A stretch of 64,000 bases of DNA, taken from Desulfocapsa sp. (GTDB taxonomy: Bacteria; Desulfobacterota; Desulfobulbia; Desulfobulbales; Desulfocapsaceae). Of the stretch, positions 36,645 to 59,259 are shown one piece after another. The stretch spans positions 186,001 to 250,000 of the forward strand of contig JAESPV010000027.1 of NCBI GenBank assembly GCA_016765495.1. Direction: 5' to 3'. The notes under the pieces were generated by a model, which made no database searches, had not been told where the DNA came from, and saw only the letters and a list, made by a program, of their open reading frames with translations. The first letter of the stretch is position 1. Each line of letters opens with the position of its first letter. Made by a program: the position numbers and the translations under genes.

Positions 36645-38165
36645 ATGCTTGCAAAGGTTCATAGCGGTGCAGTACTTGGGGTTGATGGTCTGTCAGTGGT
36701 GGTTGAAGTGGATCTTGCCCTCGGTTTACCCATGTTCACGACTGTTGGATTACCGGATGGAAGTGTCCGGGAAAGTAAAGAACGTGTTAAGGCTGCGATT
36801 AAGAACTGCGGCTATGATTTTCCTCCCAAACGAATAACGGTAAACCTGGCTCCTGCTGACATAAAAAAGGGAGGTGCCGGTTTTGACCTTCCCATTGCCC
36901 TTGGTATTCTTGCAGCATCCGAACTCTTTCCAACGGATGTATTAAAACAGTATGCCATTCTTGGTGAACTTTCGCTTGATGGTGAGCTGCGCCATGTTCC
37001 CGGAGTGCTGCCCATAGCCTTAAAGGTAAAGGAGGAAGGTTTAAAAGGTATTCTTGTTCCAGAGGCAAATAAACTGGAAGCAGCAGTTGTAAAAGGAATA
37101 GATGTAATTGCCGTAAACAGTTTGCATCAGGCCGTGGACTTTCTAGCAGGAAAATTACAACTTGACCCGGTAATTCTTAACCAGGACGATCTCCTTGTGA
37201 GCAGTATTGCCTATGATGTAGATTTTCAGGAAGTGAAAGGTCAGGAGCATGTGAAACGAGCTTTTGAAATTGCAGCATGCGGCGGGCATAATGTTGCCCT
37301 GAAGGGAGTACCAGGTTCTGGAAAGACCATGCTTGCAAGAAGGCTCAGTACTATTTTGCCCGGGATGAGTTTCGATGAGGCTCTTGAAACCACCAAAATT
37401 TATTCCATTGTAGGAAAGCTGACAACAGATGCACCACTGGTTTCCATGAGACCTTTTCGTGCACCTCATCATACCATATCCGATGCCGGACTTATTGGTG
37501 GCGGACAAATTCCGCGTCCCGGTGAAGTCTCTCTTGCCCATAACGGCGTTCTTTTTCTTGATGAACTCCCCGAATTTAAAAAACATGTTTTAGAAGTATT
37601 ACGTCAACCTCTGGAAGCAGGAGATGTTTCCATCGCCCGTGCTCATCAAACGCTGCAGTTCCCTGCTCGTTTTGTTCTTGTTGTGGCCTCAAACCCTTGT
37701 CCCTGTGGGTATTATGGCGATAAGATAAGAGAGTGTCAATGCACACCGCAACAGATTCAACGGTATAACAGCAAAGTGTCTGGACCACTTCTTGATCGTA
37801 TCGACCTCCACCTTGAAGTCGCAGCAGTTCCTTTTAAAGAAATCAGTGATGAGCGTCAGGGAGAACCGTCCAGTAAGATCAAAAAACGTGTGGATGCGTG
37901 CAGGAAAATTCAGCAAACTCGATATCAAAACAACAGGAATATCCACTGCAACGCTCAAATGGGCCCTGGAGAAATTGAGAAATATTGCTCACTTGCTCCG
38001 CCAGCCATTCGTTTGCTTGAAAAGAGCGTTGAAAAGCTTGGTCTTTCAGCACGTGGATATCATCGGATTTTAAAAATTGCAAGAACTATCGCAGACATGG
38101 ATACCAAACAAGAACTGGAGATTTCACATGTAGCAGAGGCTGTACAGTATCGGAGGAATGGGTGA
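36645..38165 (+). CDS. YifB/ComM family Mg-chelatase-like AAA+ ATPase
   Basis: AAA+ protein of 506 residues. In naturally competent bacteria ComM is a helicase that aids branch migration during DNA uptake; in others the role is less clear. The N-terminal ChlI domain has GLPDGSVRESKERVKAAIKN (family block) and NLAPADIKKGGAGFDLPIAL. Walker A GVPGSGKTMLARRL lies near residue 221 and FLDELPEF is Walker B. The C-terminal domain has NARMGPGEI-like CNAQMGPGEI and LSARGYHRILKIARTIADM. Length and order are normal. Last gene of a three-gene plus-strand unit. Confidence 0.92.
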   Translation: MLAKVHSGAVLGVDGLSVVVEVDLALGLPMFTTVGLPDGSVRESKERVKAAIKNCGYDFPPKRITVNLAPADIKKGGAGFDLPIALGILAASELFPTDVLKQYAILGELSLDGELRHVPGVLPIALKVKEEGLKGILVPEANKLEAAVVKGIDVIAVNSLHQAVDFLAGKLQLDPVILNQDDLLVSSIAYDVDFQEVKGQEHVKRAFEIAACGGHNVALKGVPGSGKTMLARRLSTILPGMSFDEALETTKIYSIVGKLTTDAPLVSMRPFRAPHHTISDAGLIGGGQIPRPGEVSLAHNGVLFLDELPEFKKHVLEVLRQPLEAGDVSIARAHQTLQFPARFVLVVASNPCPCGYYGDKIRECQCTPQQIQRYNSKVSGPLLDRIDLHLEVAAVPFKEISDERQGEPSSKIKKRVDACRKIQQTRYQNNRNIHCNAQMGPGEIEKYCSLAPPAIRLLEKSVEKLGLSARGYHRILKIARTIADMDTKQELEISHVAEAVQYRRNG

Positions 38166-38337
38166 AAGGATTCATTTTTCAATTGCGGTGCGACAAGCGT
38201 ATGATACATGGTTTTGCTCAATAGAATTTATTCCTACCCCTTTGTTACAGTTCTCTGCTGTATAGATAGTCAATGTGCTATTTTGGAGATAAATCTCATC
38301 ACCTTGTAGTAGCGATAATATATACATAACGTCATCC

Positions 38338-38366
38338 CGACATCAACCCAATTTCAGTTGATGTCG
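38338..38366 (+). terminator. Terminator-like hairpin after yifB
   Basis: CGACATCAAC (38338-38347) pairs with GTTGATGTCG (38357-38366), followed by CCTTTTAA. It stands 170 bases past the yifB stop in a 304-base gap (38166-38469) that holds nothing else I can identify except the leader of the secreted-protein gene. Confidence 0.6.
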
Positions 38367-38469
38367 CCTTTTAATTCCATCCCACCGTCGTATCTTACTA
38401 ATCAATACAGGGGAAAATATATTACAGGCCTCGATTAGAGATCAAACTTAACAAGTGGGAGAAAAGATT

Positions 38470-39270
38470 ATGACTGCCGGAAGATCAATACAAGGAATTT
38501 TGGTAATTTTGTTTGTTTTATTATTTTCTATTCCAGCCTCAGCCGGAAAGTATTCTGGGTATTCAGCCGTGGATATGGAAATAGTTTCTGATCAGCGTGG
38601 TAGACTACGCAATTTTACCGTTCAATCAGAAAGAAAAAATGTGGAGAGAAGCTATATTATAGCAAAAGACGATGAACGATATCGTATCAGAGTAAGCAAT
38701 AGAAGCAACAGACGCATAGGGGTCGTAATTGCCGTGGATGGTAGAAATATTATTTCAGGGAAAAAGTCTCATCTACAATCCAATGAGCGCATGTATATCC
38801 TCCAACCTTATGAAACACAGGAGTATGGAGGATGGCGCACCGGTCGTAACAGAACCAATCGATTCTATTTTACGCAAATGGAAGATTCATACGCTGCTGA
38901 TTGGGGGGATTATACAGCAATGGGGGTTGTAGCATTGTCGGTGTTTCAGGAGAGACAACAGGAGATCAACAGACCCAACTATAAAAGCATGGGGCAACAT
39001 AAGAAATCAGGCAGGGCAAAAAGTATGGACAGGGAACTTGGTACCGGTTTTGGTGAACGACACTGGTCTCCCAGCAGAGAGGTGCATTTTGTTGCAGAAA
39101 AAAGAGCAATCTCAAAGAAATTCATAAAGTATGAATATCGTTCAACACTGTGTCGAAAAGGGATAATTTCGTGTGGACCCAATCACAGACAAAACCGGTT
39201 TTGGAATGAAAATAACAGGAATTATGGATATGCACCATTTCCATCCTGGCATTTTGAATTAAGATTTTAG
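38470..39270 (+). CDS. Secreted protein of unknown function
   Basis: A 266-residue exported protein with a signal peptide (ILVILFVLLFSIPASA). The middle shows a pattern I have seen in uncharacterised proteobacterial proteins: a basic RIRVSNRSNRRIGVVIAVDGRNIISGK-like strand (key part VVIAVDGRNI), then YILQPYETQEYGGWR, then QMEDSYAADWGDYTAMGVVALSVF. The C-terminal third is basic, rich in Arg, Lys, Asn and aromatic residues and has two cysteines (STLCRKGIISCG). GGGAG stands 8 bases before the ATG at 38470; a GTG at 38455 is less likely. It stands alone with terminators on both sides. Function unknown. Confidence 0.75.
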   Translation: MTAGRSIQGILVILFVLLFSIPASAGKYSGYSAVDMEIVSDQRGRLRNFTVQSERKNVERSYIIAKDDERYRIRVSNRSNRRIGVVIAVDGRNIISGKKSHLQSNERMYILQPYETQEYGGWRTGRNRTNRFYFTQMEDSYAADWGDYTAMGVVALSVFQERQQEINRPNYKSMGQHKKSGRAKSMDRELGTGFGERHWSPSREVHFVAEKRAISKKFIKYEYRSTLCRKGIISCGPNHRQNRFWNENNRNYGYAPFPSWHFELRF

Positions 39271-39292
39271 AAAAAAGTGTTTAATGATTTCG

Positions 39293-39332
39293 TTGAAAGA
39301 GAAAACTTCCAATTGTCAGTTTTCTCTTTCAA
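39293..39332. terminator. Strong hairpin between convergent genes
   Basis: Perfect 15-base arms TTGAAAGAGAAAACT (39293-39307) and AGTTTTCTCTTTCAA (39318-39332) around a 10-base loop. Lies between the secreted-protein gene and the end of the hydrogenase gene; the U-rich second arm suits a terminator for the plus-strand gene. Confidence 0.6.
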
Positions 39333-39462
39333 ATTGAGGTGTGTTCTTGCCATGAAGAGGAGCTAAGGGTAAGTTGGGGGAACTGTGCAACGTATTGAGA
39401 TTTGAAAGGCGAAGCTGAATTGTAACGGATTGTCCTTTGTCGGCCAGCAGGATCAAGTCAAA

Positions 39463-41280
39463 TTAATGAACCGCACAGGTGATGCATGGATCCATGGCTC
39501 GAACCAGTTCCTCCAGCAGAGCAGTCTTTTTATCATTGGACTCTGTCCGATAACTCCGAAGTAACAGAGAAGCCTCTTGTTCAAGACTGGCAAGATTGAG
39601 AACCGTGGGAGGAATAATATTGTATAGGGTTACGTTCCCCTGTTTGTCAATATGTGCCTCATGAAACAAAAGGCCCCTAGGTGCTTCTATGGCACTCACT
39701 CCTTTTTTTGGCCAGAGGCCGCTATTCTCCAAGGCTTGTTGGCGGACTTCTTTCCGGTCAACTACCACTTCTCCTAAATCTTCACTTTGAAGCAACCCCA
39801 AGAGACGGATTGCTTCTTCAAGGTAATGGATAATCTCTATGGCTTGGGCAATATTGGTGTGAAAGGGGTTGCTGAACTTCAGGTTACTCTCTTTAAGAAC
39901 TTTTCCTGCCATTGGATTTAAGCTCTGATGATAATAAAAAAGACGAGCCAGCGCGCCTGTTTTGATGGGGATGTTTGGGGCAAGGCAGGCCACTTTGCTT
40001 GGGCAACCAGGGACGATGGATTCGTTGATAAATTCCCTATAATCACCAACTGCAAAAGGCTCAGGATTATTATAGCGGATTCTGACCCCGAACATGGGAT
40101 AGATATCCTTAATCTCCGGCTGAATGCACAACATATGTGCTGCAGTAACAGCTTCTGGCCAATCGAATTCTGAAAAAAATCGTACCAGATCCAATGAATT
40201 GTTGAGAACCCTTGAAATTTTTTCCTCCAGACTAAAAAGTCTCGATGAATCTGGAGCCTTAGAGAAACCTCCAACCGTTAATGCCACCGGATGCAGGGGG
40301 GCTCCGCCAATGATATCGAAGAACTCTTCAGTGACACGCTTTATCTCTAAGAATATATGAAATTCAGCAGGATAACGGCGGGTAACGTCAAGGCTTGATC
40401 CAAGTTCGGCGATGGATGGCAGAATCATCAAATAGAGATGAAGCAGATGGCTCTGCACCATTTGCCCACACTGAAAAATACGGCGCAGACGTCTACTCTG
40501 AATATTTGGCTGTATCTCTAAAGCATTTTCGATAGCCTTTATGGAACAGATGCAATGTGCCACGGGACAGATTCCGCAGATCCTGCTGTGCACCCTTGGA
40601 GAGGTGAGGTAAGGTTTCCCCAGCACCAAAGCCTCTGTAAACCGTTCCCCCTCTTCAGGGTGAAAATGAGCCGTTTCTTTTTTGAAATCCGCCTTGAGAC
40701 TTCCGTGTCCTTCTATCCTTGCCACATAATTAGGTTGATACACTTTCTGTATCTTGGATGTAACAGGCGACTGCCGTAACTCATTGAGTAATTTTGCTGC
40801 CACCTCGATATTTGCTGGACAGCCTGGAATAACGTGATCAACTTTGACTACTTCGGCAACAGGCTTAACAAATTGCGTCACGGTTTGGTGCTCTGGTGAA
40901 TACACTAATGCCTTGAGATTTTTTAAATTCTCTGGAGTAATTTGGGAAAAAACATGACCTGACATTGCGCACACTCCCACAGCCACAACAAGGGAACAGG
41001 TTGCTCTGGCCTGCTTCAGAAGTTCAACTTGTTCGTCATTGCAGGCATAACCCTCCACAAAAACAACATCGTAGTCAGCGGTCGTGCCTGTCTGTAACAT
41101 CCGCCAGCTGGTGACCTCAAAATCCTGGATCATATCGAGAAAGGCCGTGTCAAGCCGGAGCAGATTAACCTCGCAACCAGAGCAACCGGTTAAATCAAGA
41201 AAGGCAATTTTTGTTTTCTCTGCATTCTTGGCTGTAACTTCTATGTAGTTGAGTTTTGGTGTATTGTCTATTTTTCTCAC
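39463..41280 (-). CDS. Single-chain [NiFe]-hydrogenase: small and large subunits fused
   Basis: A 605-residue chain joining both hydrogenase subunits. Residues about 25-185 are a small subunit: LTGCSGCEVNLL (Cys 33, 36), VAVGVCAMSGH and VIPGCPANIE supply four ligands for one proximal 4Fe-4S cluster, as in short group 3/4 small subunits. From about 195 a large subunit begins (ARIEGHG). The Ni ligands are in RICGICPVAH (233-242) and DPCITCAVH (597-605). The protein ends exactly at that last histidine, so there is no C-terminal tail for a maturation protease. The sequence resembles group 3 (MvhG/HoxY-like) more than group 1. The GTG at 41278-41280 overlaps the upstream USP stop (GTGA); an ATG at 41322 is the alternative. 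No electron-acceptor subunit or hyp gene is nearby. Confidence 0.9.
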   Translation of the reverse strand: MRKIDNTPKLNYIEVTAKNAEKTKIAFLDLTGCSGCEVNLLRLDTAFLDMIQDFEVTSWRMLQTGTTADYDVVFVEGYACNDEQVELLKQARATCSLVVAVGVCAMSGHVFSQITPENLKNLKALVYSPEHQTVTQFVKPVAEVVKVDHVIPGCPANIEVAAKLLNELRQSPVTSKIQKVYQPNYVARIEGHGSLKADFKKETAHFHPEEGERFTEALVLGKPYLTSPRVHSRICGICPVAHCICSIKAIENALEIQPNIQSRRLRRIFQCGQMVQSHLLHLYLMILPSIAELGSSLDVTRRYPAEFHIFLEIKRVTEEFFDIIGGAPLHPVALTVGGFSKAPDSSRLFSLEEKISRVLNNSLDLVRFFSEFDWPEAVTAAHMLCIQPEIKDIYPMFGVRIRYNNPEPFAVGDYREFINESIVPGCPSKVACLAPNIPIKTGALARLFYYHQSLNPMAGKVLKESNLKFSNPFHTNIAQAIEIIHYLEEAIRLLGLLQSEDLGEVVVDRKEVRQQALENSGLWPKKGVSAIEAPRGLLFHEAHIDKQGNVTLYNIIPPTVLNLASLEQEASLLLRSYRTESNDKKTALLEELVRAMDPCITCAVH

Positions 41281-41720
41281 ACAACGTTTTTGCGAATATT
41301 TCTGAGGCGTAAGACGGAGCATGGAGCATCCCGATAAATGTGTTTGGCGCAGGTGTGACTGAAAGCCTCGTTGATTTCACGATACCTGTTATGATAAACA
41401 ATAATCAGGTCTGCGTCCCATTTTTTTGCCATTTTCACTACTTCTTCGTAGTTTTTTCCAGAACGAATATGGAAGGTGACTGATTCATCACAGTTCGCAG
41501 ACACAAAGGTTTGCAGTTCGTCTCTAAAATGTTCGACAGCTTCTTTACGAACTCTGTCTGAGATAAAAGACCCCACAATCGGCATACCAAAGCCAGGCAT
41601 GACAGAGATGAGTTTTATTTCAGCACCAAACGGTTTGGCTATTGTTGCTGCACAATCGTAAACAGCTTTGGCAGCAATGGGGCGATCAACATCTATGGGA
41701 ACTAAAATTTTTTTAAACAT
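41277..41720 (-). CDS. Universal stress protein family
   Basis: A 147-residue UspA-fold protein, cytoplasmic. It starts FKKILVPIDVDRPIAAKAVYDCA and contains WDADLIIVYHNR, then ends in APCSVLRLR. The ATP-binding G-x2-G-x9-G(S/T) motif expected after the fourth strand is missing (it reads YHNRYREINEAFSH), so this is probably a non-nucleotide-binding type. GGAGAG stands before the ATG at 41720; the frame also has an ATG four codons earlier. It lies between a TRAP permease gene and the hydrogenase gene. USP genes often accompany TRAP transporters (TeaD is the known example), so it may tune the transporter. Confidence 0.85.
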   Translation of the reverse strand: MFKKILVPIDVDRPIAAKAVYDCAATIAKPFGAEIKLISVMPGFGMPIVGSFISDRVRKEAVEHFRDELQTFVSANCDESVTFHIRSGKNYEEVVKMAKKWDADLIIVYHNRYREINEAFSHTCAKHIYRDAPCSVLRLRNIRKNVV

Positions 41721-41758
41721 AACACTCTCCAAAAGGTTTTCTTTTAACCTTTCAACTT

Positions 41759-41794
41759 GACCCAGTGCTGCACAGATAAGTACAGCACTGGGTC
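41759..41794. terminator. Hairpin between TRAP permease and USP genes
   Basis: Perfect 12-base arms GACCCAGTGCTG (41759-41770) and CAGCACTGGGTC (41783-41794). No T-run follows on the minus strand, so it may be a partial terminator or an mRNA-end stabiliser within the transcript. Confidence 0.5.
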
Positions 41795-41868
41795 GTTAGG
41801 TTGTAAGTTTGTCTAATAGCCACTGATAGACGGTTAGCCAGTATTCCCTTGATGGGTGTAAAACACTA

Positions 41869-44463
41869 CTATTGATTTGACCTGGGCCGTGAGATACCCT
41901 CCTTCTTTTTCCGACGCCTTTGGAGAAAATATACAAAAGCAAATAAGGCATAAGCAGGTATAAAAAGAAGTTGCTTGGGAGGTATGTCAGTTGGCATTTG
42001 AATAGTCAGGATTTCCTGATCAAAGTCTATACCAACTTTCTCAGCAGCACTGCCAAAAATAACATTGTCTACAAGAACTTTACCATCTTCTTCTCGTATT
42101 TCAATTCCAATTCCTTCTAAGCGGGCCTTACCAGATGCCTGATCTCCGACTGGCAGCATAACGGTTTTAGTGTACTCATCCCCATTCATGCTTTCACCCT
42201 TGATCATTACTCGTAGTGAAGAACCGGGTTGAGTTTCTGTAAGAAGGGTTTCAATACGGGTCGGAGATTCATTGGAAAGAGGTGGAAAAAACTTACCCCA
42301 AAAGTATCCCGGCCGGAAGAGTACGAAGGTCACTAAAAGAAGTGCAATTGTTTCCCAGAGACGGCTTTTAACAATGAAAAAACCCTGTGTTGCGGCTGCA
42401 AATGCCAGCATGGCAGCAATTGCAGCGGTAACAATCAGTACTAGAACGAACAAGCTGTCAATGCCTATCATTAATAACTGGGTATTAAAGATAAACATAA
42501 ATGGCAGGATGGCTGTTCTGATGTCGTAGGTGAAACCCTGTATACCGGTTTTGATCGGATCTCCTCCGGAAATCCCTGCAGCCGCAAAGGCAGCTAGCCC
42601 CACAGGTGGTGTATCATCGGCAAGAATTCCAAAGTAAAAGACAAACAGATGGACAGCTATCAAAGGTACGATGAGGCCATTCTGGGCACCAAGCTCTACA
42701 ATTACCGGAGCCATAAGAGTGGAAACAACAATATAGTTTGCGGTCGTTGGCAGTCCCATACCAAGTATTAAGCTGATGAGAGCAGTAAAGAAAAGAACCA
42801 GCATCAGGTTGCCACCTGAAATAAACTCCACAAAATCAGTCATAACAAGACCGATACCCGTGAGTGTGATGGTACCGACAACAATACCTGCTGCTGCAGT
42901 TGCAACACCAATACCAATCATATTTCTGGCGCCGGACACCAGTCCGTTAATAAAATCATCAAAACCATTTTTAAAAGAAAAATCCTCATCCTGACTTTTC
43001 CTGAAATACCCTTTTAACGGACGTTGAGTTAAGACAATAACAATCATGAGAACTGTGGCCCAGAAAGCTGAAAGGGCAGGGGACAAACGTTCTACAACCA
43101 GGCACCACATAAGAACAACAATGGGCAGTAAAAAATATAATCCTGCCTGCGCAGTTTTCCAAAGCTCTGGGAGTTCTTTGATGTCGTGTGTCTGTTCAAG
43201 TTCAGGTACCTTGGTGGCATACATGATGAGCCCGAGATATGCGATAGCAAGTAAGCCCGACACGATATAAATAGTGAAGTTACCAGCAACAGTCTTGATC
43301 CAGCCAATGCCATAATACGTAACAGCAGCCATGACAATCATGAACAAAAAACTAAATACAAATGATAGCAATTTCTGGGCAAGTGTTTGTGTAACTCTCT
43401 TTTTCAAGCCTTCAAGTCCCATCTTACAGGCTTCAAGGTGAACAATATAAACAAGTGCTATATAAGAGATAATTGCAGGTAAAAATGCACACTTAATAAC
43501 TTCAAGGTAGGTGATACCAACATACTCGACCATGAGAAAAGCGGCGGCACCCATAACAGGAGGCATAAGCTGACCATTGGTGGAACAGGCAACTTCAATG
43601 GCTCCGGCTTTTTCAGCTTTAAAGCCAACTTTTTTCATCAATGGAATGGTAAAGGTTCCAGTGGTGACAACATTTGCAATGGAAGAACCTGACACAAGCC
43701 CAGTGAGACCGGAGGAAACAACAGCAGCCTTTGCAGGACCACCCTTGAGATGTCCAAGCCCGGCAAATGCAGTGCGGATAAAATAATTACCAGCACCAGC
43801 TGATTCTAAGAGTGCGCCAAAAAGAACAAACATAAAAACCATACCAGTGGAAACACCCAAAGCAACGCCAAAAACACCTTCTGTTCCAAGCCAGTAATGG
43901 GACATACCCTTATTCAGGCTCGCTCCCTTATGGGCAATAACATCCGGCATAAATTGCCCGCCAAAAGTATAGATACAAAATATAGCGGCAACCACCATCA
44001 GCGGTGGTCCTAAGGCCCGGCGTGTTGCTTCAAGCAGTAGAATCATACCGGTAACTGCCACGATGATATCCATTTGAGTTGGATCACCTGGCCGTTCGGC
44101 AAGTCCTGCATAAAAGAAATATAAATAGGATGCACAAAAGGTTGCAATCATACCAAGAACCCAATCCTGAATGGGGATGTAGCTTCTCGGAGAAGTTTTA
44201 AACGTAGGGTAAGCTGTGTAAGAAAGAAAGACGGCAAAGGCCAGGTGAATGGCTCTTGCTTCGGTGTCGTTAATAATAAAAAAATTAAAAATAAATGGAA
44301 GAGGAGATGCGTACCAAAGCTGAAAAATAGTCCAGATAAGCGGAACTAAAAAAAGAATTTTTTTAGGAAAAGCACCCGTTGGATTTCGGGCACCGAAGTC
44401 TGTCTCAGCGATCATCTCCTGAAGTTCTTTATCGGTTTTTATGTCGAAATTTTCTTCACTCAT
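41869..44463 (-). CDS. TAXI-type TRAP transporter, fused 4TM/12TM permease
   Basis: Inner-membrane secondary transporter of 864 residues in which the small (DctQ-like) and large (DctM-like) subunits are one chain, the usual form for TAXI systems. Many hydrophobic segments are seen; typical DctM blocks are GLVSGSSIANVVTTGTFTIPLMKK (key part SGSSIANVVTTG), SCTNGQ-like ACSTNGQLMPPVMGAAAF, and LGMGLPTTANYIV. The C-terminal 170 residues form a DUF3394-like domain with an extracytoplasmic PDZ-like stretch, between membrane segments. The frame is open to 44535, but AAAGG and family alignment support the ATG at 44461-44463. Its receptor is the next gene upstream. Substrate unknown; TAXI systems include glutamate/oxoglutarate carriers. 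Confidence 0.92.
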   Translation of the reverse strand: MSEENFDIKTDKELQEMIAETDFGARNPTGAFPKKILFLVPLIWTIFQLWYASPLPFIFNFFIINDTEARAIHLAFAVFLSYTAYPTFKTSPRSYIPIQDWVLGMIATFCASYLYFFYAGLAERPGDPTQMDIIVAVTGMILLLEATRRALGPPLMVVAAIFCIYTFGGQFMPDVIAHKGASLNKGMSHYWLGTEGVFGVALGVSTGMVFMFVLFGALLESAGAGNYFIRTAFAGLGHLKGGPAKAAVVSSGLTGLVSGSSIANVVTTGTFTIPLMKKVGFKAEKAGAIEVACSTNGQLMPPVMGAAAFLMVEYVGITYLEVIKCAFLPAIISYIALVYIVHLEACKMGLEGLKKRVTQTLAQKLLSFVFSFLFMIVMAAVTYYGIGWIKTVAGNFTIYIVSGLLAIAYLGLIMYATKVPELEQTHDIKELPELWKTAQAGLYFLLPIVVLMWCLVVERLSPALSAFWATVLMIVIVLTQRPLKGYFRKSQDEDFSFKNGFDDFINGLVSGARNMIGIGVATAAAGIVVGTITLTGIGLVMTDFVEFISGGNLMLVLFFTALISLILGMGLPTTANYIVVSTLMAPVIVELGAQNGLIVPLIAVHLFVFYFGILADDTPPVGLAAFAAAGISGGDPIKTGIQGFTYDIRTAILPFMFIFNTQLLMIGIDSLFVLVLIVTAAIAAMLAFAAATQGFFIVKSRLWETIALLLVTFVLFRPGYFWGKFFPPLSNESPTRIETLLTETQPGSSLRVMIKGESMNGDEYTKTVMLPVGDQASGKARLEGIGIEIREEDGKVLVDNVIFGSAAEKVGIDFDQEILTIQMPTDIPPKQLLFIPAYALFAFVYFLQRRRKKKEGISRPRSNQ

Positions 44464-44581
44464 GCGATGATACCTTTTAGTTATGTTTGCTTGGGAATGG
44501 GAACAAATACTGGTGAACAGTAAACAAGTCAGCATACGTTCCTTATAAACCCTTTTCAGAAAAACCTAAAAAAGAATTCAT

Positions 44582-44737
44582 AAGGAACTAAGTTGCTTGA
44601 ACATATTGCGAAGAATGTTTTTCTCCACCTGTACTTGAAAACACGTTGCATACAGGAAGGATGCAACGTGTTTTCAAGTACAGGAAAGGGAACAAGGGGC
44701 CAATAAGATGTTCAAGTTATTTCGTGTACGTTCCTTA
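44582..44737. repeat. MITE-like palindromic element, copy 3 (best preserved)
   Basis: About 156 bases. The ends are inverted: AAGGAAC...TTGAACAT on the left and ATGTTCAAGTTATTTCGTG followed by TACGTTCCTT on the right. In the middle CCTGTACTTGAAAACACGTT (from 44629) and its complement ending in TTTTCAAGTACAGG (to about 44684) form a hairpin of 24-base arms around a short loop. It lies between the TAXI receptor and the TRAP permease. No coding capacity. Confidence 0.75.
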
Positions 44738-44800
44738 GTGTAACTCCCATAAATGGTAATAGGAGGTAGGTACTACTGAAAAAATATGGGGTAAGTAAAA

Positions 44801-44827
44801 AAGGCGTACTGTTTGTCAGTACGCCTT
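44801..44827 (-). terminator. Intrinsic terminator after the TAXI receptor gene
   Basis: AAGGCGTACTG and CAGTACGCCTT form an 11-base stem around TTTGT; on the minus strand the stem is followed by a run of T. It stands 15 bases after the receptor stop. Partial readthrough would give a high receptor-to-permease ratio. Confidence 0.85.
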
Positions 44828-44841
44828 TTTTATAAGTCGGA

Positions 44842-45813
44842 CTATTTTAGAAGGCCAGCTTCTTTATAGTATTTAGCAGCTCCATCATGCAAAGGAGCAG
44901 AGAGACCATCTTTTATCATTTCTTCTTTTTTCAGATTGTTAAATGCTGGATGCAGTTTCCGGAAGGAGTCAAAGTTCTCAAATACTGCTTTAACTACGTT
45001 GTAGATAACGTTTTCAGGAACATCGGAGGAAGAAACAAAGGTAGCACCTACACCAAAAGTTTTAGTGTCAGTATCGGTTCCACGATACATTCCACCAGGG
45101 ATGGTAGCGGTACGATAGTAGTCATTGTCTGCGACAAGTTTGTCTACTTCAGGTCCTGTTACATTAACCAGTATTGCATCACATGAAGTGGTAGCCTCTT
45201 TAATGGATCCACTTGGGTGACCAGCGACGAAAACCATAGCATCAACTTTATTGTCACAAAGTGCTTTAGACTGCTCCGAAGATTTCAACTCGGAGGCAAG
45301 TTTGAAATCTTTTGTGGTCCAACCAAGGGCATCCATCAGAACTGTCATGGTACCACGCTGACCGGAACCAGGGTTACCAATGTTCACACGTTTACCTTTC
45401 AAATCTTTGAATTCTTTAATACCGGAATCAGCACGGGCAACAACGGTGAAGGGCTCTGGATGAATGGAGAAAACTGCCCGAAGTTTTTTGTTTGGTCCTT
45501 TTTTCTCAAACTTTGAAGTTCCGTTATATGCATGATACTGCCAATCAGACTGGGCGACACCCATATCAAGTTCACCGGCAGCAATGGTGTTCAGATTGTA
45601 AATAGAACCACCTGTACTCTCAACTGAGCAACGGATTCCATGATCTTTTCTTGTTTTATTTACAAGGCGACAAATAGCGCCACCAGTGGGATAATAAACG
45701 CCGGTAACACCGCCGGTGCCGATGGTTACAAATTGTTGCTCGGCAAAAGATGGGGTAGAGGCGAGAGCGAGGGCAAATCCGCAACCAATGGCAATTCTTG
45801 ATACAAGTTTCAT
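44842..45813 (-). CDS. TAXI-family TRAP transporter solute-binding protein
   Basis: Periplasmic receptor of 323 residues. Signal peptide [18 protein letters not shown], then [25 protein letters not shown] (key part [15 protein letters not shown]), the hallmark of TAXI proteins. Later [26 protein letters not shown] and a C-terminal [13 protein letters not shown] are also family blocks. Two cysteine pairs may form a disulfide. TAGGAGA stands before the ATG. A strong terminator follows, then the repeat element and the permease gene. Promoter elements must lie in the AT-rich gap 45814-46086. Confidence 0.93.
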
Positions 45814-46086
45814 TTTGTGTTCTCCTAATGATAAAACAATGAATAGATTAAAGAGTCTTCTGTTTTTAATCTTCCTTCTGTCAGTTTGGTGCTGTTTTCT
45901 TTGTTTGTGACCTCCTTTCGTTGGATCCTGTCTAAGTTTGGCTGTAATTGGTACTAATAAGGAATTTGTATCACTGATAAATCGTTAAATATATAGAGAA
46001 ATGAATTGTAAGGCAATCATTTTAATTCCTTTAAATGGAATTTTAGATAGTAAAACTGTGGAGAATTCCCAGTAAGCTGGTTTTAT

Positions 46087-46899
46087 TTACGGTATAAAAT
46101 GAAGGAGCGGACCGTTACTTCTGCTTGTTGCGACAGATGTATTTAGTCCGGCAGTGATAATTCTATCCATGTATTCACCTGTCAGCTTGAAGGCTGTAAC
46201 GGCATCATTTCCCAGACATAAGTAAGATGCCAGTGCCGATGAGTAGGTGCAGCCGGTACCGTGAAGATTTGGGTTCCGAATTCGTCTGCGTTTTGATTCG
46301 CTGATGATTTTACCGGGCTGTACCAGAAAATCACAAATATTTAATTCTGATTCCTCAAGATGTCCGCCTTTGATTACAAGTGCCTTCATTTGAGGGTATT
46401 TGTTGAGTACCAGTCTGGCACAGTCAATGGCATCTTCTTTGGTGCTGATCGATGTATTACTGATCAACTGTAATTCCGATGTGTTTGGGGTTAGATAAGA
46501 TATTTCCGGTAAAAGCTTTTCTTTGAGGACTGAAAAAGCATCTGTTTTCAGCAGAGGAGCTCCTGATGTAGCGGCAAGCACCGGATCATAAATAACCTCA
46601 CCAGCAAATGAACGAAGCAGGTTTGCAAGACAATATAAGATTTCTGCATTGCCGGTCATTCCTATCTTAATGTGTGTGACATCGTGGTCTTCGAGAACTG
46701 CCTGTATCTGCGCCTGAACAAATCCCGCTGAAAGTGGTTGTATTTCCTGGACACCACGTGAATTTTGCACAGTAAGACAGGTGATGGCAGCTGCGCCATA
46801 AACACCAATTACAGTCATGGTTTTTACGTCTGCCTGAATTCCTGCACCTCCTGATGGATCAGAGCCGGCAATACTGAGAAGAGTGGGTTGAATAAGCAA
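46087..46899 (-). CDS. thiD: Hydroxymethylpyrimidine/phosphomethylpyrimidine kinase
   Basis: Ribokinase-fold kinase of 270 residues phosphorylating HMP and HMP-phosphate for thiamine synthesis. LLSIAGSDPSGGAGIQADVKT is the family start (key part AGSDPSGGAGIQAD). QNSRGVQ, KIGMTGN, YDPVLAATSGAPLL, and the C-terminal NLHGTGCTYSSALA with the anion-hole/catalytic region are all present. The gene stands alone, divergent from the topoisomerase pair. No TPP riboswitch is seen before it. thiE, thiG and a clearly classical thiC are not in the window. Confidence 0.94.
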   Translation of the reverse strand: MLIQPTLLSIAGSDPSGGAGIQADVKTMTVIGVYGAAAITCLTVQNSRGVQEIQPLSAGFVQAQIQAVLEDHDVTHIKIGMTGNAEILYCLANLLRSFAGEVIYDPVLAATSGAPLLKTDAFSVLKEKLLPEISYLTPNTSELQLISNTSISTKEDAIDCARLVLNKYPQMKALVIKGGHLEESELNICDFLVQPGKIISESKRRRIRNPNLHGTGCTYSSALASYLCLGNDAVTAFKLTGEYMDRIITAGLNTSVATSRSNGPLLHFIP

Positions 46900-47059
46900 A
46901 TAATATACCTGTGTGTAATGATTTTCTTATGTTTTCAGTGTGTCATTCCGTCTATTGCGAAATATAGTAAAATGCAATACTATTGCAAGGCTTCATCATA
47001 TTATTAGTACCTTATAAATTCTATCGCAGTCTACGCGTATTTCATGCAAGCCTCTTAAC

Positions 47060-50966: not shown

Positions 50967-53900
50967 ATGAACGTTCAGGAATTTCTCAAAAAATGTTTCC
51001 TCTTTGACATTGAAATCAACGAGAAAAATGAGATTTATTCGCTTGGTGCTGTTTGTGGTGAAGATACTTTTCTGCTGGAAGCAGGAAGAAAAATCAACAA
51101 ACAGCAACTGGCTGATTTTGACGCCCTTGCCGCCGAAGCAGATTTTATCCTTGGTCACAACATATTCTCTCACGATGTACCCCATCTGACCAGGCTGGCA
51201 CCGAATCTTGCCCTTCTGCAAAAGCCGGTAATCGACACTCTGTATTTCTCTCCACTTGCCTTTCCGGAAAATCCTTACCATCGCCTGGTAAAAGATTATC
51301 AGATTGTCCGGGACAGCGTTAATAATCCTGTTCAGGATGCAAAACTTGCCGGAAAAATATTTTGCGAACAATGGGAGGCATTCAAGCTCCAGATAGAATC
51401 CTGTTCTGATGCCCCTCTCCTCTATCGCAGCTTTTTCCATCAGGAGTCATTGCTTAGTGGCCTGTCGTCTGCGATGAGCGAGATGGGTATAGCACTTCTT
51501 GAAGGTGATGATCTTTTTGAAAGTTTTTCCTGGTTTATCCGTGAAAAAGCGTGTGGAATAGCCTTGCAGTACCTTCTCGATCAACTTGGCAGTGGCAACA
51601 TAAGCTATCCGCCACTGGCCTATGTCACAGCATGGATCACAGTTGCCGGTGGGAATTCCGTTCTCCCTCCATGGGTACGTCACCATTTCCCGGAGGTGCG
51701 CCTGATCCTTCAGCAACTTCGGGAAATCCCGTGCAATCACAAGGATTGCCACTACTGTAGCAACCATCATAATCCCAAATACTTTCTTAAAAATTTTTTC
51801 GGCTTTGACGATTTCAGATCAACCCCGGCCACCAAAGAAGGGAAAAGTCTGCAGCAGGAAATAGTACAGTCTGCAGCCAGCAACCAATCGGTTTTCGCCA
51901 CATTACCCACAGGCGGCGGCAAATCCCTCTGCTACCTTCTCCCTGCCCTGATGCGCTACCATCGCCGAAACACTCTATCCATTGTCATCTCACCCCTGCA
52001 GGCCCTGATGAAAGATCAAGTGGATAATTTTTCCAACCAGACAGGCACCGGTGTTGCGGCGGCTCTTTCGGGAATGTTGACTCTCCCCGAACGGCGTGTT
52101 GTTCAGGAAGGCGTGCGGTTGGGTGACATCGGTATTTTGTACGTTTCGCCCGAGCAATTACGCAACAGTTCTTTTATTAACACCGTCAAGCAGCGCGAGA
52201 TCGGGGCCTGGATATTTGATGAAGCTCACTGTCTCTCCAAATGGGGGCATGATTTCCGACCGGATTACCTCTACTCCATCCGTTTTATCCGCGAGATGGC
52301 GCAACGGGACAAATGCAATATCCCGCCCGTACAGTGTTTTACCGCCACCGCTAAAAAGGATGTGAAGATCGAAATCATTGATATACTCGGGCGGGAACTT
52401 GGAATAAAAATCATCGAATTTGAAGGAGGTCATGAGCGTTCAAACCTGATTTATGAAGTATATCCCACAAGTCCCTATGAAAAAAACGAAACCATTCTGG
52501 AACTGCTCCGTATTCGATATCATGCTTCCGGTAGTGTGGTTATCTATTGTGCCAGGCGAAAAAGCACTGAAGAACTGGCTGAACTCCTGCAAACTGCAGG
52601 CTATAATGCCATGGCATTTCACGCAGGTCTCGTCCCGTCGGAGAAAAAAAATATTCAGGAAGATTTTATAAAAGGCAATATCCCGATAATATGCGCAACA
52701 AATGCATTTGGTATGGGAATTGACAAGGATAATGTGCGTCTTGTTATCCATTACGATATCCCCGGTTCTCTTGAAAATTATCTGCAGGAAGCAGGACGTG
52801 CCGGACGGGATAGAAATACAGCCGAATGTATCCTTATCTTTACGGATCAGGATATAGAAACCCAGTTTACCCTGAGCTCGATTTCAAGACTGACCAAACG
52901 CGAAATAGCGCAGCTGCTGCGAGGTTTACGCTATGCGGCCAAGGGAGAAAAGGAACTGGTTCTCACCACCGGTGAACTTATGCGTCAAGAGGTTGTGGAT
53001 CTTGACTCTGAAGAAATGTATGACGCTGACACCAGGGTAAGAACAGCAATCTCCTGGCTGGAACGGAGCGGGTATCTGCAGCGGAATGAAAACAACACCA
53101 GAGTATTCCAGGGTACTCCCCTGGTGCGTAATCTTGAAGAGGCCAGAGAAAAGATCGATTCCCTCGGGCTTTCAAAACGTCAGCAGGAACGCTGGATCTC
53201 TATTCTTGCTGCGATCATGGAAAACCGTACGCCAAACCGAGGTTTTAGTGCCGATGAGTTGGCGGGGCACAGTTCGTTTCAGAAAGCCGAACATGACTCC
53301 GAAAATGAAACAGAATCACAGCGTGTTATCCGTACCCTGCAAGACATGGCAGAGCAGGGGGTGCTGAACAAGGAAACCACTCTCACCGCCTATATTCGCC
53401 ATAAAGTTGCGGACAGCTCCAAAAAACGACTGGAACAAACCTGTTCTCTTGAACGGGATTTTTTAAAGGTTCTTGAAGAGATAGCACCCGACACTGAAAC
53501 GGAAAGCCGTCTGCAGATCGATTTAAGACAGGTGAATCAAAAACTTTTGGATATGGGACATGACTACGCCACCTCACGCAGCCTGAACCTGATTCTCCAT
53601 GGGCTATCATTGGATGGAAAAGGAATCGCAGGACAAAAGGGCAGTGTCAGTATCCGGGATCGCGGCTATCATCGATTTTCCATGATGTTGCACAGGGACT
53701 GGCAATCCCTGAACACAACGGTGAGAATCCGTCAGCAGGCAGCTTTTAATGCTCTGAATATGCTGCATTTGGCAGTACCTGTCGAGGCTCCGGCAGGTGC
53801 AGCAATTCTTGTTGAATTTACCCTTGAAAAAATCATTGATGCGCTGAAGCATGACATGCTTCTTACCGACCTGAAAGATCCCCTGGCTGCTGCGGAACGG

Positions 53901-56147
53901 GCACTGACGTTTATGAATGAACAGTCCATAATCGACCTGCAGCAGGGACTTGCAGTGTTTCGTCAAGCCATGACCATAACGCTGAATATGGATAAAAAAG
54001 GTGTTCGCTATACAAATAGTGATTTTGCTCCACTCAGAACCCATTATGGTGAACGCAATTTCCAGATCCACGTGATGAACGAATATGCAAAACGGGCGCT
54101 GGATACCATCAATGCAGCAAGGGGTCTGGTGAACTCCTACTTTCAGGATGAAAAGGAAGACTTTATCAAACGCTTTTTTCCGGGCCGTGAAAAAACATTG
54201 CAGCGGGCAACCAGTGAGCAGTCCTACCAGCAGATTGTTGATGATCTTCACAACCCTGCCCAGGAGGCCATTGTTTCTGCAAAAACATCCAGTAATATTC
54301 TGGTTCTTGCGGGGCCTGGATCGGGAAAAACCAGGGTGGTCGCCCATCGTATCGCTTTTCTTCTTCGGGTTAAACGGGTTCGCCCCGGCTCCATCCTTGC
54401 TCTCTGCTATAATCGTTCTGCCGTTACAAGCCTGCGAAAACAGATGAAGGATCTGATAGGACGTGACATGCAGAGAGTGACAACACTCACCTTCCATGGC
54501 CTGGCTCTTCGTATAACCGGCCGCTCACTAACGGAACAGATTCTTGATAAGGCTAAAACAGAGATCGATTTTTCAGAGCTGATCCGGGATGCCATAAAAC
54601 TGCTAAGAGGAGAAAGTGATGTTTTAGGCTTTGGTGACGGAGAGCCACGGGATGAGTTGATTAACAGGTTCAGCCATATTCTGGTAGATGAATATCAGGA
54701 CATTGACGAGGAACAATATACCCTGATTTCCCTTCTGGCCGGCCGGAATCTTAGTGCAAGTGAGGAAAAGATGACCATCATGGCAGTTGGTGATGATGAT
54801 CAGAATATCTATCGTTTCAGGGGCACAAATGTTGAATTTATTCGTAAATTTCATCGGGATTACAAGGCGGACATTCACCATCTAACAGAAAATTACCGCT
54901 CAACCGCTTATATTGTCGCTGTTTCCAATCAGCTTATTCGTCATAATCAAGACAGAATGAAAACCGAACATCCAATAAGGATAAACAGCGGCAGAAAAAC
55001 GCTGCCACCGGGCGGCAATTTGCAACAGAGCGATCCGGAAAGAAAGGGCAGGGTCGCAGTTCTTACCGTTGCGGACGAGAACACACAAGCGATATCAGTT
55101 TTACAGGAAATCAAAAAGCTGCAACAACTTGAAAATAATTTCACTTATCCAGACTGCGCAATTTTAAGTAGGGAGTGGAAGGATCTTGATTTACTCCGAA
55201 CCCTGTTTGAACAAGAAAACATTCCTGTTTCAACCAATTGGGGCAGATATAATTTCCCCACTTTTACCCGTATCCGGGAACATAAAAAACTCCTGAACTA
55301 TTTACAGAAAAATATCACCAAAGAAATGCAAGCCAACACTCTATTGAACCTGTTACCGTCAAATCGGGATGAAGATACTATCTGGCAGGATAATCTTCGC
55401 AGTATCATTAAAGACTGGGCTGAAGAAACAGCTGACACCTCCCAGCCTATATCGGACATTCTGGATTATATCTATGAAACACTGAGTGACCAGCGTCGAT
55501 CCGGGAACATTGGAAACGGAGTCTTCCTTTCCACGGTTCACTCCGTAAAGGGTATGGAATTTAATCATATTTTTATTCTGGCAGAAAACTGGCAGCAGAA
55601 ACAGGGGACAGAACTCGAAGAAGAGCGACGTCTCTTTTATGTTGCCATGTCACGGGCAAGAGAGTCACTCCATCTTTTTTCACTGCAAAACAAAAACAAA
55701 AACAAAAAGCCAAAAAATCCCCATACCGCACTCCTGAAGGGGGAAGAAATTTTTCGCAAAACAGTTGATCGAGTGGAAGCAGAAAAACTGCCACATTTTC
55801 ACTATGAAATTCTAGGAATGAAAGAACTGTTTATCGACTATGGTGGAAGTAAACCATCATGCCATCCCATACACAAAGAGCTGAGTAGATTAAAAGCCGG
55901 TGATACCCTGCAGTTGGAAGAGCGTAACAAACACCTGGAACTGACAAGCAAGGGAATAGCCGTGGCCCGCTTGTCGAAAAGTGCAGCCAAACACTGGCAA
56001 TCCCGACTGCAATTCATTAAAGTTGCAAAGATTATTGCAATCACCGTGCGACATCGCACTGATATCAGAGATGGTACATTTGTCGACCGCTGTGAGGTAG
56101 AAAGCTGGGAGTTGCCCATTGTTGAGCTTAAGATTGACACTGAATAA
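50967..56147 (+). CDS. Exonuclease-RecQ-UvrD helicase fusion
   Basis: A 1726-residue DNA-processing protein. Residues 1-200 resemble a DEDD 3'-5' exonuclease (FDIEINEKNEIYSLG, LGHNIFSHD). A RecQ-type SF2 helicase follows: TLPTGGGKSLCYLLPAL near 313, FDEAHCLSKWGHDFRPDY near 418, GMGIDKDNVRLVIHYDIPGSLENYLQEAGRAGRD (key part QEAGRAGRD). A linker of about 400 residues includes winged-helix-like parts. Then an SF1A UvrD-like helicase: LAGPGSGKTRVVAHR near 1115, LVDEYQDIDEEQY near 1241, STVHSVKGMEFNHIF and a C-terminal RRLFYVAMSRARESLHLF. All motor motifs look intact, so the protein has two motors and a nuclease. Similar RecQ-UvrD fusions exist in scattered bacteria; their role in repair or defence is not settled. 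Confidence 0.9.
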   Translation: MNVQEFLKKCFLFDIEINEKNEIYSLGAVCGEDTFLLEAGRKINKQQLADFDALAAEADFILGHNIFSHDVPHLTRLAPNLALLQKPVIDTLYFSPLAFPENPYHRLVKDYQIVRDSVNNPVQDAKLAGKIFCEQWEAFKLQIESCSDAPLLYRSFFHQESLLSGLSSAMSEMGIALLEGDDLFESFSWFIREKACGIALQYLLDQLGSGNISYPPLAYVTAWITVAGGNSVLPPWVRHHFPEVRLILQQLREIPCNHKDCHYCSNHHNPKYFLKNFFGFDDFRSTPATKEGKSLQQEIVQSAASNQSVFATLPTGGGKSLCYLLPALMRYHRRNTLSIVISPLQALMKDQVDNFSNQTGTGVAAALSGMLTLPERRVVQEGVRLGDIGILYVSPEQLRNSSFINTVKQREIGAWIFDEAHCLSKWGHDFRPDYLYSIRFIREMAQRDKCNIPPVQCFTATAKKDVKIEIIDILGRELGIKIIEFEGGHERSNLIYEVYPTSPYEKNETILELLRIRYHASGSVVIYCARRKSTEELAELLQTAGYNAMAFHAGLVPSEKKNIQEDFIKGNIPIICATNAFGMGIDKDNVRLVIHYDIPGSLENYLQEAGRAGRDRNTAECILIFTDQDIETQFTLSSISRLTKREIAQLLRGLRYAAKGEKELVLTTGELMRQEVVDLDSEEMYDADTRVRTAISWLERSGYLQRNENNTRVFQGTPLVRNLEEAREKIDSLGLSKRQQERWISILAAIMENRTPNRGFSADELAGHSSFQKAEHDSENETESQRVIRTLQDMAEQGVLNKETTLTAYIRHKVADSSKKRLEQTCSLERDFLKVLEEIAPDTETESRLQIDLRQVNQKLLDMGHDYATSRSLNLILHGLSLDGKGIAGQKGSVSIRDRGYHRFSMMLHRDWQSLNTTVRIRQQAAFNALNMLHLAVPVEAPAGAAILVEFTLEKIIDALKHDMLLTDLKDPLAAAERALTFMNEQSIIDLQQGLAVFRQAMTITLNMDKKGVRYTNSDFAPLRTHYGERNFQIHVMNEYAKRALDTINAARGLVNSYFQDEKEDFIKRFFPGREKTLQRATSEQSYQQIVDDLHNPAQEAIVSAKTSSNILVLAGPGSGKTRVVAHRIAFLLRVKRVRPGSILALCYNRSAVTSLRKQMKDLIGRDMQRVTTLTFHGLALRITGRSLTEQILDKAKTEIDFSELIRDAIKLLRGESDVLGFGDGEPRDELINRFSHILVDEYQDIDEEQYTLISLLAGRNLSASEEKMTIMAVGDDDQNIYRFRGTNVEFIRKFHRDYKADIHHLTENYRSTAYIVAVSNQLIRHNQDRMKTEHPIRINSGRKTLPPGGNLQQSDPERKGRVAVLTVADENTQAISVLQEIKKLQQLENNFTYPDCAILSREWKDLDLLRTLFEQENIPVSTNWGRYNFPTFTRIREHKKLLNYLQKNITKEMQANTLLNLLPSNRDEDTIWQDNLRSIIKDWAEETADTSQPISDILDYIYETLSDQRRSGNIGNGVFLSTVHSVKGMEFNHIFILAENWQQKQGTELEEERRLFYVAMSRARESLHLFSLQNKNKNKKPKNPHTALLKGEEIFRKTVDRVEAEKLPHFHYEILGMKELFIDYGGSKPSCHPIHKELSRLKAGDTLQLEERNKHLELTSKGIAVARLSKSAAKHWQSRLQFIKVAKIIAITVRHRTDIRDGTFVDRCEVESWELPIVELKIDTE

Positions 56148-58419: not shown

Positions 58420-59259
58420 ATGGGAAAAAAAGCACTATGCGTTGGTGTCAACAATTTCAAGAACTTCCCAGGTGCCGCATTGCGTGGATGTGTCAACGAT
58501 GTACAGGACATGTCATCACTACTCCAGGAACTCTTTGGATTTGCAAATAAGGATATCACTATTTTAACTGATGCAGATGCCACAAAGGCAAACATCATGA
58601 ATAATCTAGAGGCAATGGTGGATGAGGCCAAAGCTGGTAAATATAATTATATTGTCTTCAGCTTTTCCAGTCATGGTACCCAGGTTCCAGATTTGAGCGG
58701 CGATGAGGATGATGCGGCAGATGAAGCATTTTGCCCCCATGATTTGGATCAGGCTGGTGATGCATGGGATCCAAATTTCATTATTACCGATGACGAATTG
58801 CACGATCTCTTCGCTACTCTGCCTGAAAATGTGATACTGGAGGTGTATCTCGACACCTGTCACAGCGGCACTGGGGTCAGGGCGATAGATTTTCTCTTGA
58901 CCCGCAAGCCACGATATATGCCGCCGCCATCACTTCAGGCGTTTAAGCAGATTGAAGGCCGGGCTTCACGCGGACTCGCAAGAAAATTCATACAGCTGCC
59001 TGTTGTCCATCATGTTTTGTGGGCGGGATGCCGCTCCGAGCAGACCAGTGCGGACGCTTTGATTGAGAATAACTGGCATGGGGCGTTTACGTACTTCTTC
59101 TGCAAACAAATGCGTGCATGTCAAAACAGACTTTCTCGTAAAGAGATAATTACCAAGGTGCGGGGAGATCTGGCTGCAGGTAACTATACCCAGATACCAC
59201 AACTGGAATGTGATGCGACCCGAAGAAATGAATCCGTCGCTAGTCTTTTAAAACTATAG
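58420..59259 (+). CDS. Caspase-like (peptidase C14 / metacaspase) protease
   Basis: Cysteine protease of the caspase/metacaspase clan, 279 residues, cytoplasmic (no signal peptide). The start KKALCVGVNNFKNFPGAALRGCVNDVQDM is typical (key part LRGCVNDVQDM). The catalytic dyad is His85 in SFSSHGTQ and Cys147 in LDTCHSGT. Acidic residues around DLSGDEDDAADEAF suit calcium or S1 basic-residue binding, as in type I metacaspases. There is no extra effector or sensor domain, so the protein is a bare peptidase domain. AAGGAGAAAAGG stands before the ATG. Downstream follow a microgene and an M15 peptidase on the same strand. Role unknown; self-killing, processing of a partner, or stress response are possible. 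Confidence 0.9.
   Translation: MGKKALCVGVNNFKNFPGAALRGCVNDVQDMSSLLQELFGFANKDITILTDADATKANIMNNLEAMVDEAKAGKYNYIVFSFSSHGTQVPDLSGDEDDAADEAFCPHDLDQAGDAWDPNFIITDDELHDLFATLPENVILEVYLDTCHSGTGVRAIDFLLTRKPRYMPPPSLQAFKQIEGRASRGLARKFIQLPVVHHVLWAGCRSEQTSADALIENNWHGAFTYFFCKQMRACQNRLSRKEIITKVRGDLAAGNYTQIPQLECDATRRNESVASLLKL

Follow-up and report, generated by a model that had tools for sequence, protein, structure and literature searches.

Most [NiFe]-hydrogenases are assembled in a set order: the metal site is put into the large subunit, the large subunit is trimmed, and it is then joined to the small subunit. The closest described systems to the locus we discuss here are the group 3b enzymes, or sulfhydrogenases (HydBGDA, ShyBGDA), in which HydD is the small subunit and HydA the large one. 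HydD has a cysteine-rich C-terminal domain whose cysteines bind further clusters. The available portions of PMC7294309 describe a proofreading that prevents premature hydrogenase subunits from being joined, and they give 2b, 2d, 4c, 4e and 4g as the prominent tail-less groups, a list from which group 3b is absent. A chain that is born with both subunits cannot follow the order of filling, trimming and joining, so a fusion of the two is a direct test of whether that order is needed. A comparable case in the literature is the engineered one-chain [FeFe]-hydrogenase DdHydAB, in which joining the subunits sped up in vitro maturation, and for which natural one-chain homologues are also named (PMC12933642). 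DdHydAB resembles our locus in having two subunits in one chain, but it belongs to an unrelated enzyme class and was engineered. Among the matches listed from the open-licence PMC literature, a body that leaves most subscription papers outside, there is no report of a natural fusion of the small and large [NiFe] subunits.

The window, a stretch of 64,000 nucleotides from a Desulfocapsa genome (G000), carries a one-chain [NiFe]-hydrogenase at 39463..41280 on the minus strand. This observation is confirmed by the reading frame, by Pfam, NCBIfam and PDB matches, and by orthologues. The frame has its stop codon at 39463 and no internal stops, and it encodes 605 amino acids from a GTG at 41280 or 619 if it starts from an ATG at 41322. 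We prefer the GTG, since it and the stop of usp, the universal stress protein gene on its upstream side (PF00582; 41277..41732, minus strand), overlap by 4 bases (GTGA), and since the next 19 codons hold no further in-frame ATG, GTG or TTG. Residue numbers nonetheless refer throughout to the 619-residue form. Pfam finds PF01058 at residues 47-181 and the best stretch of PF00374 at residues 230-298 of the same chain. The small-subunit domain lies at 40770..41226 on the minus strand, with approximate borders taken from PF01058 and an alignment with HydD and HoxY, and it has the proximal-cluster cysteines only. The large-subunit domain lies at 39463..40764 on the same strand, its start being approximate (PF00374, NF040832 and a PDB alignment to the alpha subunit of P. 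furiosus sulfhydrogenase 1). A short linker at about residues 186-199 separates the two. Where a [NiFe]-hydrogenase normally has separate small and large subunits, the two share a single frame in three genomes with intact copies, and a fourth genome keeps the frame across the joint.

All four proximal-cluster cysteines are present (Cys47, 50, 118 and 168, aligned with those of HydD and HoxY), as are the Ni-ligand cysteines at 249, 252, 613 and 616. The motifs RxCGxCxxxH and DPCxxCxxH take the form RICGICPVAH and DPCITCAVH, and the final codon of the gene is the histidine of the second. An earlier sequence-only reading had claimed exactly this, a fusion of small and large subunit with every cluster and nickel ligand in place and a chain that stops at the last histidine, and on these points it was right. 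RIEGH and EAPRG, which we take to be the carriers of second-shell catalytic residues, occur together with the ligand cysteines and the final histidine in the window chain and in its orthologues wherever the stretch is covered. A strictly conserved pendant arginine is named in PMC10430524. The small domain also has an extra cysteine at residue 94 (GYACNDEQ or GFVCNEEQ) in all five fusion rows that cover the site, whereas the two HydD sequences and the single HoxY in our alignment have another residue there. An AlphaFold2 model of the fusion built from five rows had a mean pLDDT of 46 and was too poor to use.

The relationship to group 3b is clear in several kinds of data. The nearest solved chains in the PDB are the alpha and delta subunits of sulfhydrogenase 1, and the large part of the fusion shares about 30-37% identity with group 3b. 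In NCBIfam the large part is matched best by the sulfhydrogenase HydA model (213.7 bits) and the small part by the HydD model (78.1 bits), both scoring far under their curated cut-offs. The equivalog level is missed by NF040832 (213.7 bits against a cut-off of 880) and NF040828 (194.7 bits against 700). However, an ordinary group 3b row, L010, falls under the cut-offs too, with 286 and 258.3 bits, so the equivalog cut-off is not decisive for membership in group 3b. We built a careful tree of 47 large subunits that leaves out complex I and Ehr sequences, the group 1/2 rows (L001, L002, the second L076 row, HoxG and HoxC) and the truncated L079 row, and that keeps 15 of the 36 tail-less 3b rows and omits the other 21. 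The fusions form one clade with group 3b at 100/100, a clade that includes P. furiosus SHI, Rhodococcus, Streptomyces and the Desulfobacterota 3b rows.

Within that clade the four fusion rows group with 100/100 support, and their stem measures 1.57 changes per site, a branch long enough that it could reflect a changed function. The tree does not settle the earliest branching within group 3b, and long branches leave the exact place of the fusion unsure. The fusions join P. furiosus SHI at 99/96, but this carries a long-branch warning and we do not rely on it. The data neither establish nor reject a common clade of the fusions with the tail-less 3b enzymes of their own order (AU p 0.23). We file the fusion as group 3b by descent, though not as a full member by its parts. 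The sequence-only reading had placed it as group 3-like and had said that a place among Ni-free complex I or Ehr-like relatives would count against it; in our tree, from which complex I and Ehr rows are absent, it clusters with 3b, so group 3b-derived is the more exact placement.

Ordinary operons of the same order show what the fusion has lost. In the two that we read (G006 and G240) the genes run hydB-hydG-hydD-hydA, named from their translations, with hydD directly before hydA. This is likely the parent layout of the fusion, which also has small before large. All 38 ordinary small subunits read have 100-129 residues with 8-10 cysteines, mostly 9, after the proximal domain. This cysteine-rich domain is absent from the fusion, whose large subunit begins where the domain would stand. 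Such a gene pair may have become the fusion through an in-frame deletion that took away the 3' part of hydD and the first codons of hydA. The description of the locus as two subunits joined holds as far as the fusion goes, but it overlooked the loss of the C-terminal domain of HydD. Compared with the sulfhydrogenases the fusion differs in being one chain, in lacking this domain and in having no HydB or HydG among the neighbours read or scanned. A small subunit with a single cluster domain is already known in another group, since in Cupriavidus, too, HoxY has nothing beyond the proximal-cluster domain. Group 3d HoxYH is otherwise different, with two chains, the diaphorase HoxFU, a tailed HoxH and another branch in the tree.

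The sequence-only reading considered the fusion unusual for being combined with the loss of the maturation tail. That pairing turns out not to be special, because 36 of the 38 ordinary two-gene group 3b large subunits that we read from the same order also end at the histidine (35 in DPCISCSVH and one in DPCISCSSH). The remaining two run seven residues past it, and the four that we read outside the order, in the rest of the phylum, extend 7-13 residues beyond it. The 38 loci (L010-L028, L045 and L047-L064) are those of group 3b among the best matches of the searches of relatives and of the order; in the latter 90 of the 257 genomes matched, fusions included. Tail-less rows, counting fusions and repeated loci, stop at TGA 17 times, TAG 16 times and TAA 15 times, and the sequence that follows varies, so the loss is not a shared read error. 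As controls, HoxC, a sensor, has no tail (DPCMVCTVH-stop), and HoxG, HoxH and a Rhodococcus group 3b enzyme have one. The tree needs at least three changes of tail state, with P. furiosus SHI scored by us as tailed. We had entertained the idea that the tail was lost along with the fusion and dropped it, since nearly all the unfused enzymes read from the order are tail-less as well. These enzymes stop at the same histidine and likewise need no tail cleavage, but their small and large subunits are separate proteins. They offer more material for studying whether the tail is needed.

Two other observations on large-subunit ends came out of this survey. The genome of the window has another tail-less chain (L002, 1501-3117 on the minus strand of contig C37), which is over the NiFeSe_hydrog cut-off and ends in DPCLACAVH followed by TAG. 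In the large subunits at L004, which is VhuA-like, L035, L042 and L043, the frame stops after ...YDP, at the site of the first cysteine of DPCxxC. An internal TGA is reported for L035, L042 and the L004/L008 gene, which suggests selenocysteine.

We lean, by a little, towards reading the locus as a genuine [NiFe]-hydrogenase in one polypeptide, of group 3b descent and under selection, a putative minimal cytosolic enzyme that would be matured by Hyp proteins and would give its electrons to a soluble carrier. Hyp proteins encoded elsewhere would insert the NiFe(CN)2CO site with the small domain already attached, and the fusion would have no need of a tail protease. No signal sequence is seen by eye, so the enzyme is probably cytosolic, and there it would interconvert H2 with protons and electrons. 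The electrons would leave through the single proximal cluster to a small carrier of the ferredoxin or flavodoxin type, and presumably not to NADP(H). HypD, which was the Hyp gene searched for, is found in all six genomes that have the fusion or a piece of it; the sole HypD match of the window's genome is on a different contig from the hydrogenase. An ordinary group 3b large subunit is not seen in any of the four genomes whose fusion is whole or nearly so (one of them, G109, is an assembly 85% complete), and G235, which has only a remnant, does have one. It would be tempting to say that the fusion replaces the ordinary enzyme, but we gave this up since no ordinary group 3b large subunit is seen in the fusion-free relatives G015, G017, G516 and G643 either.

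A bolder claim is that this is a functional natural one-chain [NiFe]-hydrogenase, the first of its kind, matured by Hyp proteins with its small subunit attached, in which neither a tail-cleavage checkpoint nor a separate joining of subunits would be possible and electrons would go out through one iron-sulfur cluster. We give this claim as much belief as doubt. If it is correct, a few uncultured bacteria have the two halves of a hydrogen enzyme as one protein without the usual electron wiring, and that protein could be used to test how hydrogenases are assembled. A compact one-gene hydrogenase would also be of use in engineering if it is active.

The genes around the fusion bear on what it does. 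Eight neighbours between 34490 and 46899 were scanned and none belongs to a diaphorase, ferredoxin, hyp or HoxFU-like family, which bears out the earlier statement that no diaphorase, ferredoxin or hyp gene is near. The nearest ferredoxin-like domain scanned is at 15829-17646, more than 20 kb away, in a chain where ferredoxin-like and CCG cysteine-rich domains are joined to a VTT membrane domain. Beyond usp is the membrane subunit of a TRAP transporter (DctM + DUF3394; 41869..44535, minus strand), also present in congeners without the hydrogenase, and then the TAXI-type (NMT1_3) solute-binding protein of that system (44842..45813, minus strand), identified by scan and by comparison with congeners. 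The TRAP membrane subunit and the hydrogenase, being on the same strand, are perhaps in one operon. In G109 the neighbours are an integrase-domain fragment upstream, TrkH, and a histidine kinase that lies downstream and is encoded on the opposite strand. In G645 the neighbours are an HU-type protein, Sua5, formate-tetrahydrofolate ligase, FolD (by reading), CO dehydrogenase and a FAD enzyme, and G535 has the same layout, by reading. No partner recurs between the lineages of the window, G109 and G645/G535.

This setting is what gives the main rival its appeal, namely that the fusion senses H2 and, like the tail-less HoxBC, signals its presence to a regulator instead of feeding metabolism. No metabolic partner gene adjoins the fusion, G109 has its histidine kinase, and the known sensors are also tail-less, both in the HoxC we read and in the portions of PMC7294309 that treat them. 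We nevertheless find this reading doubtful. The ordinary 3b enzymes read from the order mostly lack the tail as well, so its loss is no pointer to sensing. HoxC falls outside the group 3 rows in a fuller quick tree, and a kinase adjoins the fusion only in G109 and at none of the other loci read. HoxBC (group 2b) also differs from the fusion in having two chains, and in C. necator its genes are beside a kinase-like ATP-binding protein and a regulator.

Copies or pieces of the fusion are in six genomes: three are intact (G000, G109 and G645), one is frameshifted (G535) and two are remnants (G666 and G235), so half of the copies are broken or partial. G645, G535 and G666 correspond to loci L078, L081 and L079, and sequence identity was verified for these three and for G109. 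Identity to the window fusion is 84-85% for G109, 82% for the G235 piece, 70% for G666, 57% for G645 and 55% for G535. The G109 copy was assembled from two contigs that share an overlap of exactly 141 nt inside the gene, with the joint in frame. G645 has a single 589-residue frame with the joint intact. In G535 the joint is in frame and a frameshift near residue 90 is either real or a sequencing fault. The G666 remnant ends after about residue 404, and that of G235 is the last 130 residues only. Since the joint is in frame in G109, G645 and G535, the fusion is neither chance nor a sequencing slip.

These copies come from searches of 56 relatives, of 257 genomes of the order (E <= 1e-40, repeated as the class at 1e-64), of 395 genomes drawn from the phylum (1e-62), and of 46 genomes of the order and class of G535; the cut-offs are strict (1e-40; 1e-62 to 1e-66), so short remnants could escape them. 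Twelve genomes of the class of G426 gave no fusion match at a strict cut-off run with no positive control, and among 19 congeners no match reached the quality expected of the fusion. A pattern scan with a two-row alignment found four fusion loci in a collection of 84,980 species, a scan that is not exhaustive given that the G235 remnant is absent from its output, and a single-sequence pattern scan of genome contigs found zero. No fusion was found in viral contigs. Among plasmids 26 records matched, none above 60% identity, and the six that cover most of the query do so in 2 or 3 pieces each. Long open frames in G024, G038 and G097 were considered as further fusions, as were fetched loci of G026, G051 and G003 and a 704-residue frame of G201, but in all of them the small and large subunits are separate. 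The check covered these loci; other long frames, such as those of G203, G210 and G211, matched over the large part only.

The gene travels alone and sideways between bacterial families, as several comparisons show together. When 38000-47000 of the window is compared with G109, DNA similarity is confined to 39461-41226, inside the gene. The congener G015 has the same neighbour order (a hypothetical gene, usp, TRAP, the TAXI protein and thiD) with another TAXI-like gene in the hydrogenase slot, while G012 has a TAXI-like gene beside usp and G001 has usp and then another gene. Finally, the G235 remnant is 82% identical to the window fusion, against 64% for the YifB of G235; G109 has no YifB match for the same comparison.

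A gene that moves in this way might be a decaying stray, present in a few genomes after transfer and without a lasting role. Two of the six copies being remnants and a third frameshifted would fit that, as would its absence from all 19 congeners. We consider it improbable because of how the sequences have changed. By a Nei-Gojobori script dN/dS is 0.111 between the window and G109 (0.066 in the small domain and 0.132 in the rest), 0.083 between G645 and G535, and 0.104 between the window and G235. The pair G109-G235 gives 0.241 over 130 codons, and three more distant pairs have saturated silent sites and give no ratio. These values mean that both domains are under purifying selection, and those of the long pairs, 0.08-0.11, are hard to square with decay. 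The neighbours of G645 and G535 are conserved as well.

A further rival reading is that the fusion has kept sulfhydrogenase-type activity, in which polysulfide or a thiol, not ferredoxin, takes up the electrons of H2. Its closest named relatives are indeed the alpha and delta subunits of sulfhydrogenases 1 and 2. We think this quite improbable, since the fusion is missing the extra cysteine-rich domain of HydD, and since no HydB/HydG-type gene turned up in the neighbouring genes covered by reading or scanning in the window, G109, G645, G535 and G666. Nothing plainly sulfur-related recurs in the neighbours scanned either.

That the fusion was made by an assembly or sequencing error, which the sequence-only reading had named as one of its dangers, is hardly credible and already refuted by independent copies: the assembly is a draft with 7.28% estimated contamination, but the identical joint, with no stop at it, occurs in other species, in other assemblies from other families, and the contig is at home in its genus, with a YifB 91% identical to that of the congener G017.

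A few other features of this genome deserve mention. Contig C87 (L123), 3.8 kb long, encodes the same protein sequence as the window across the TAXI gene and the greater part of the TRAP gene and ends before the junction of usp and the hydrogenase; it is either an assembly duplicate or a piece of a second strain. The window encodes a 1726-residue chain at 50967-56147 in which, by the look of the translation, a RecQ-type helicase is joined to a UvrD-type helicase. At 58420-59259 it encodes a bacterial caspase-like protein (PF00656), followed by what looks from its translation like a peptidoglycan-binding peptidase.
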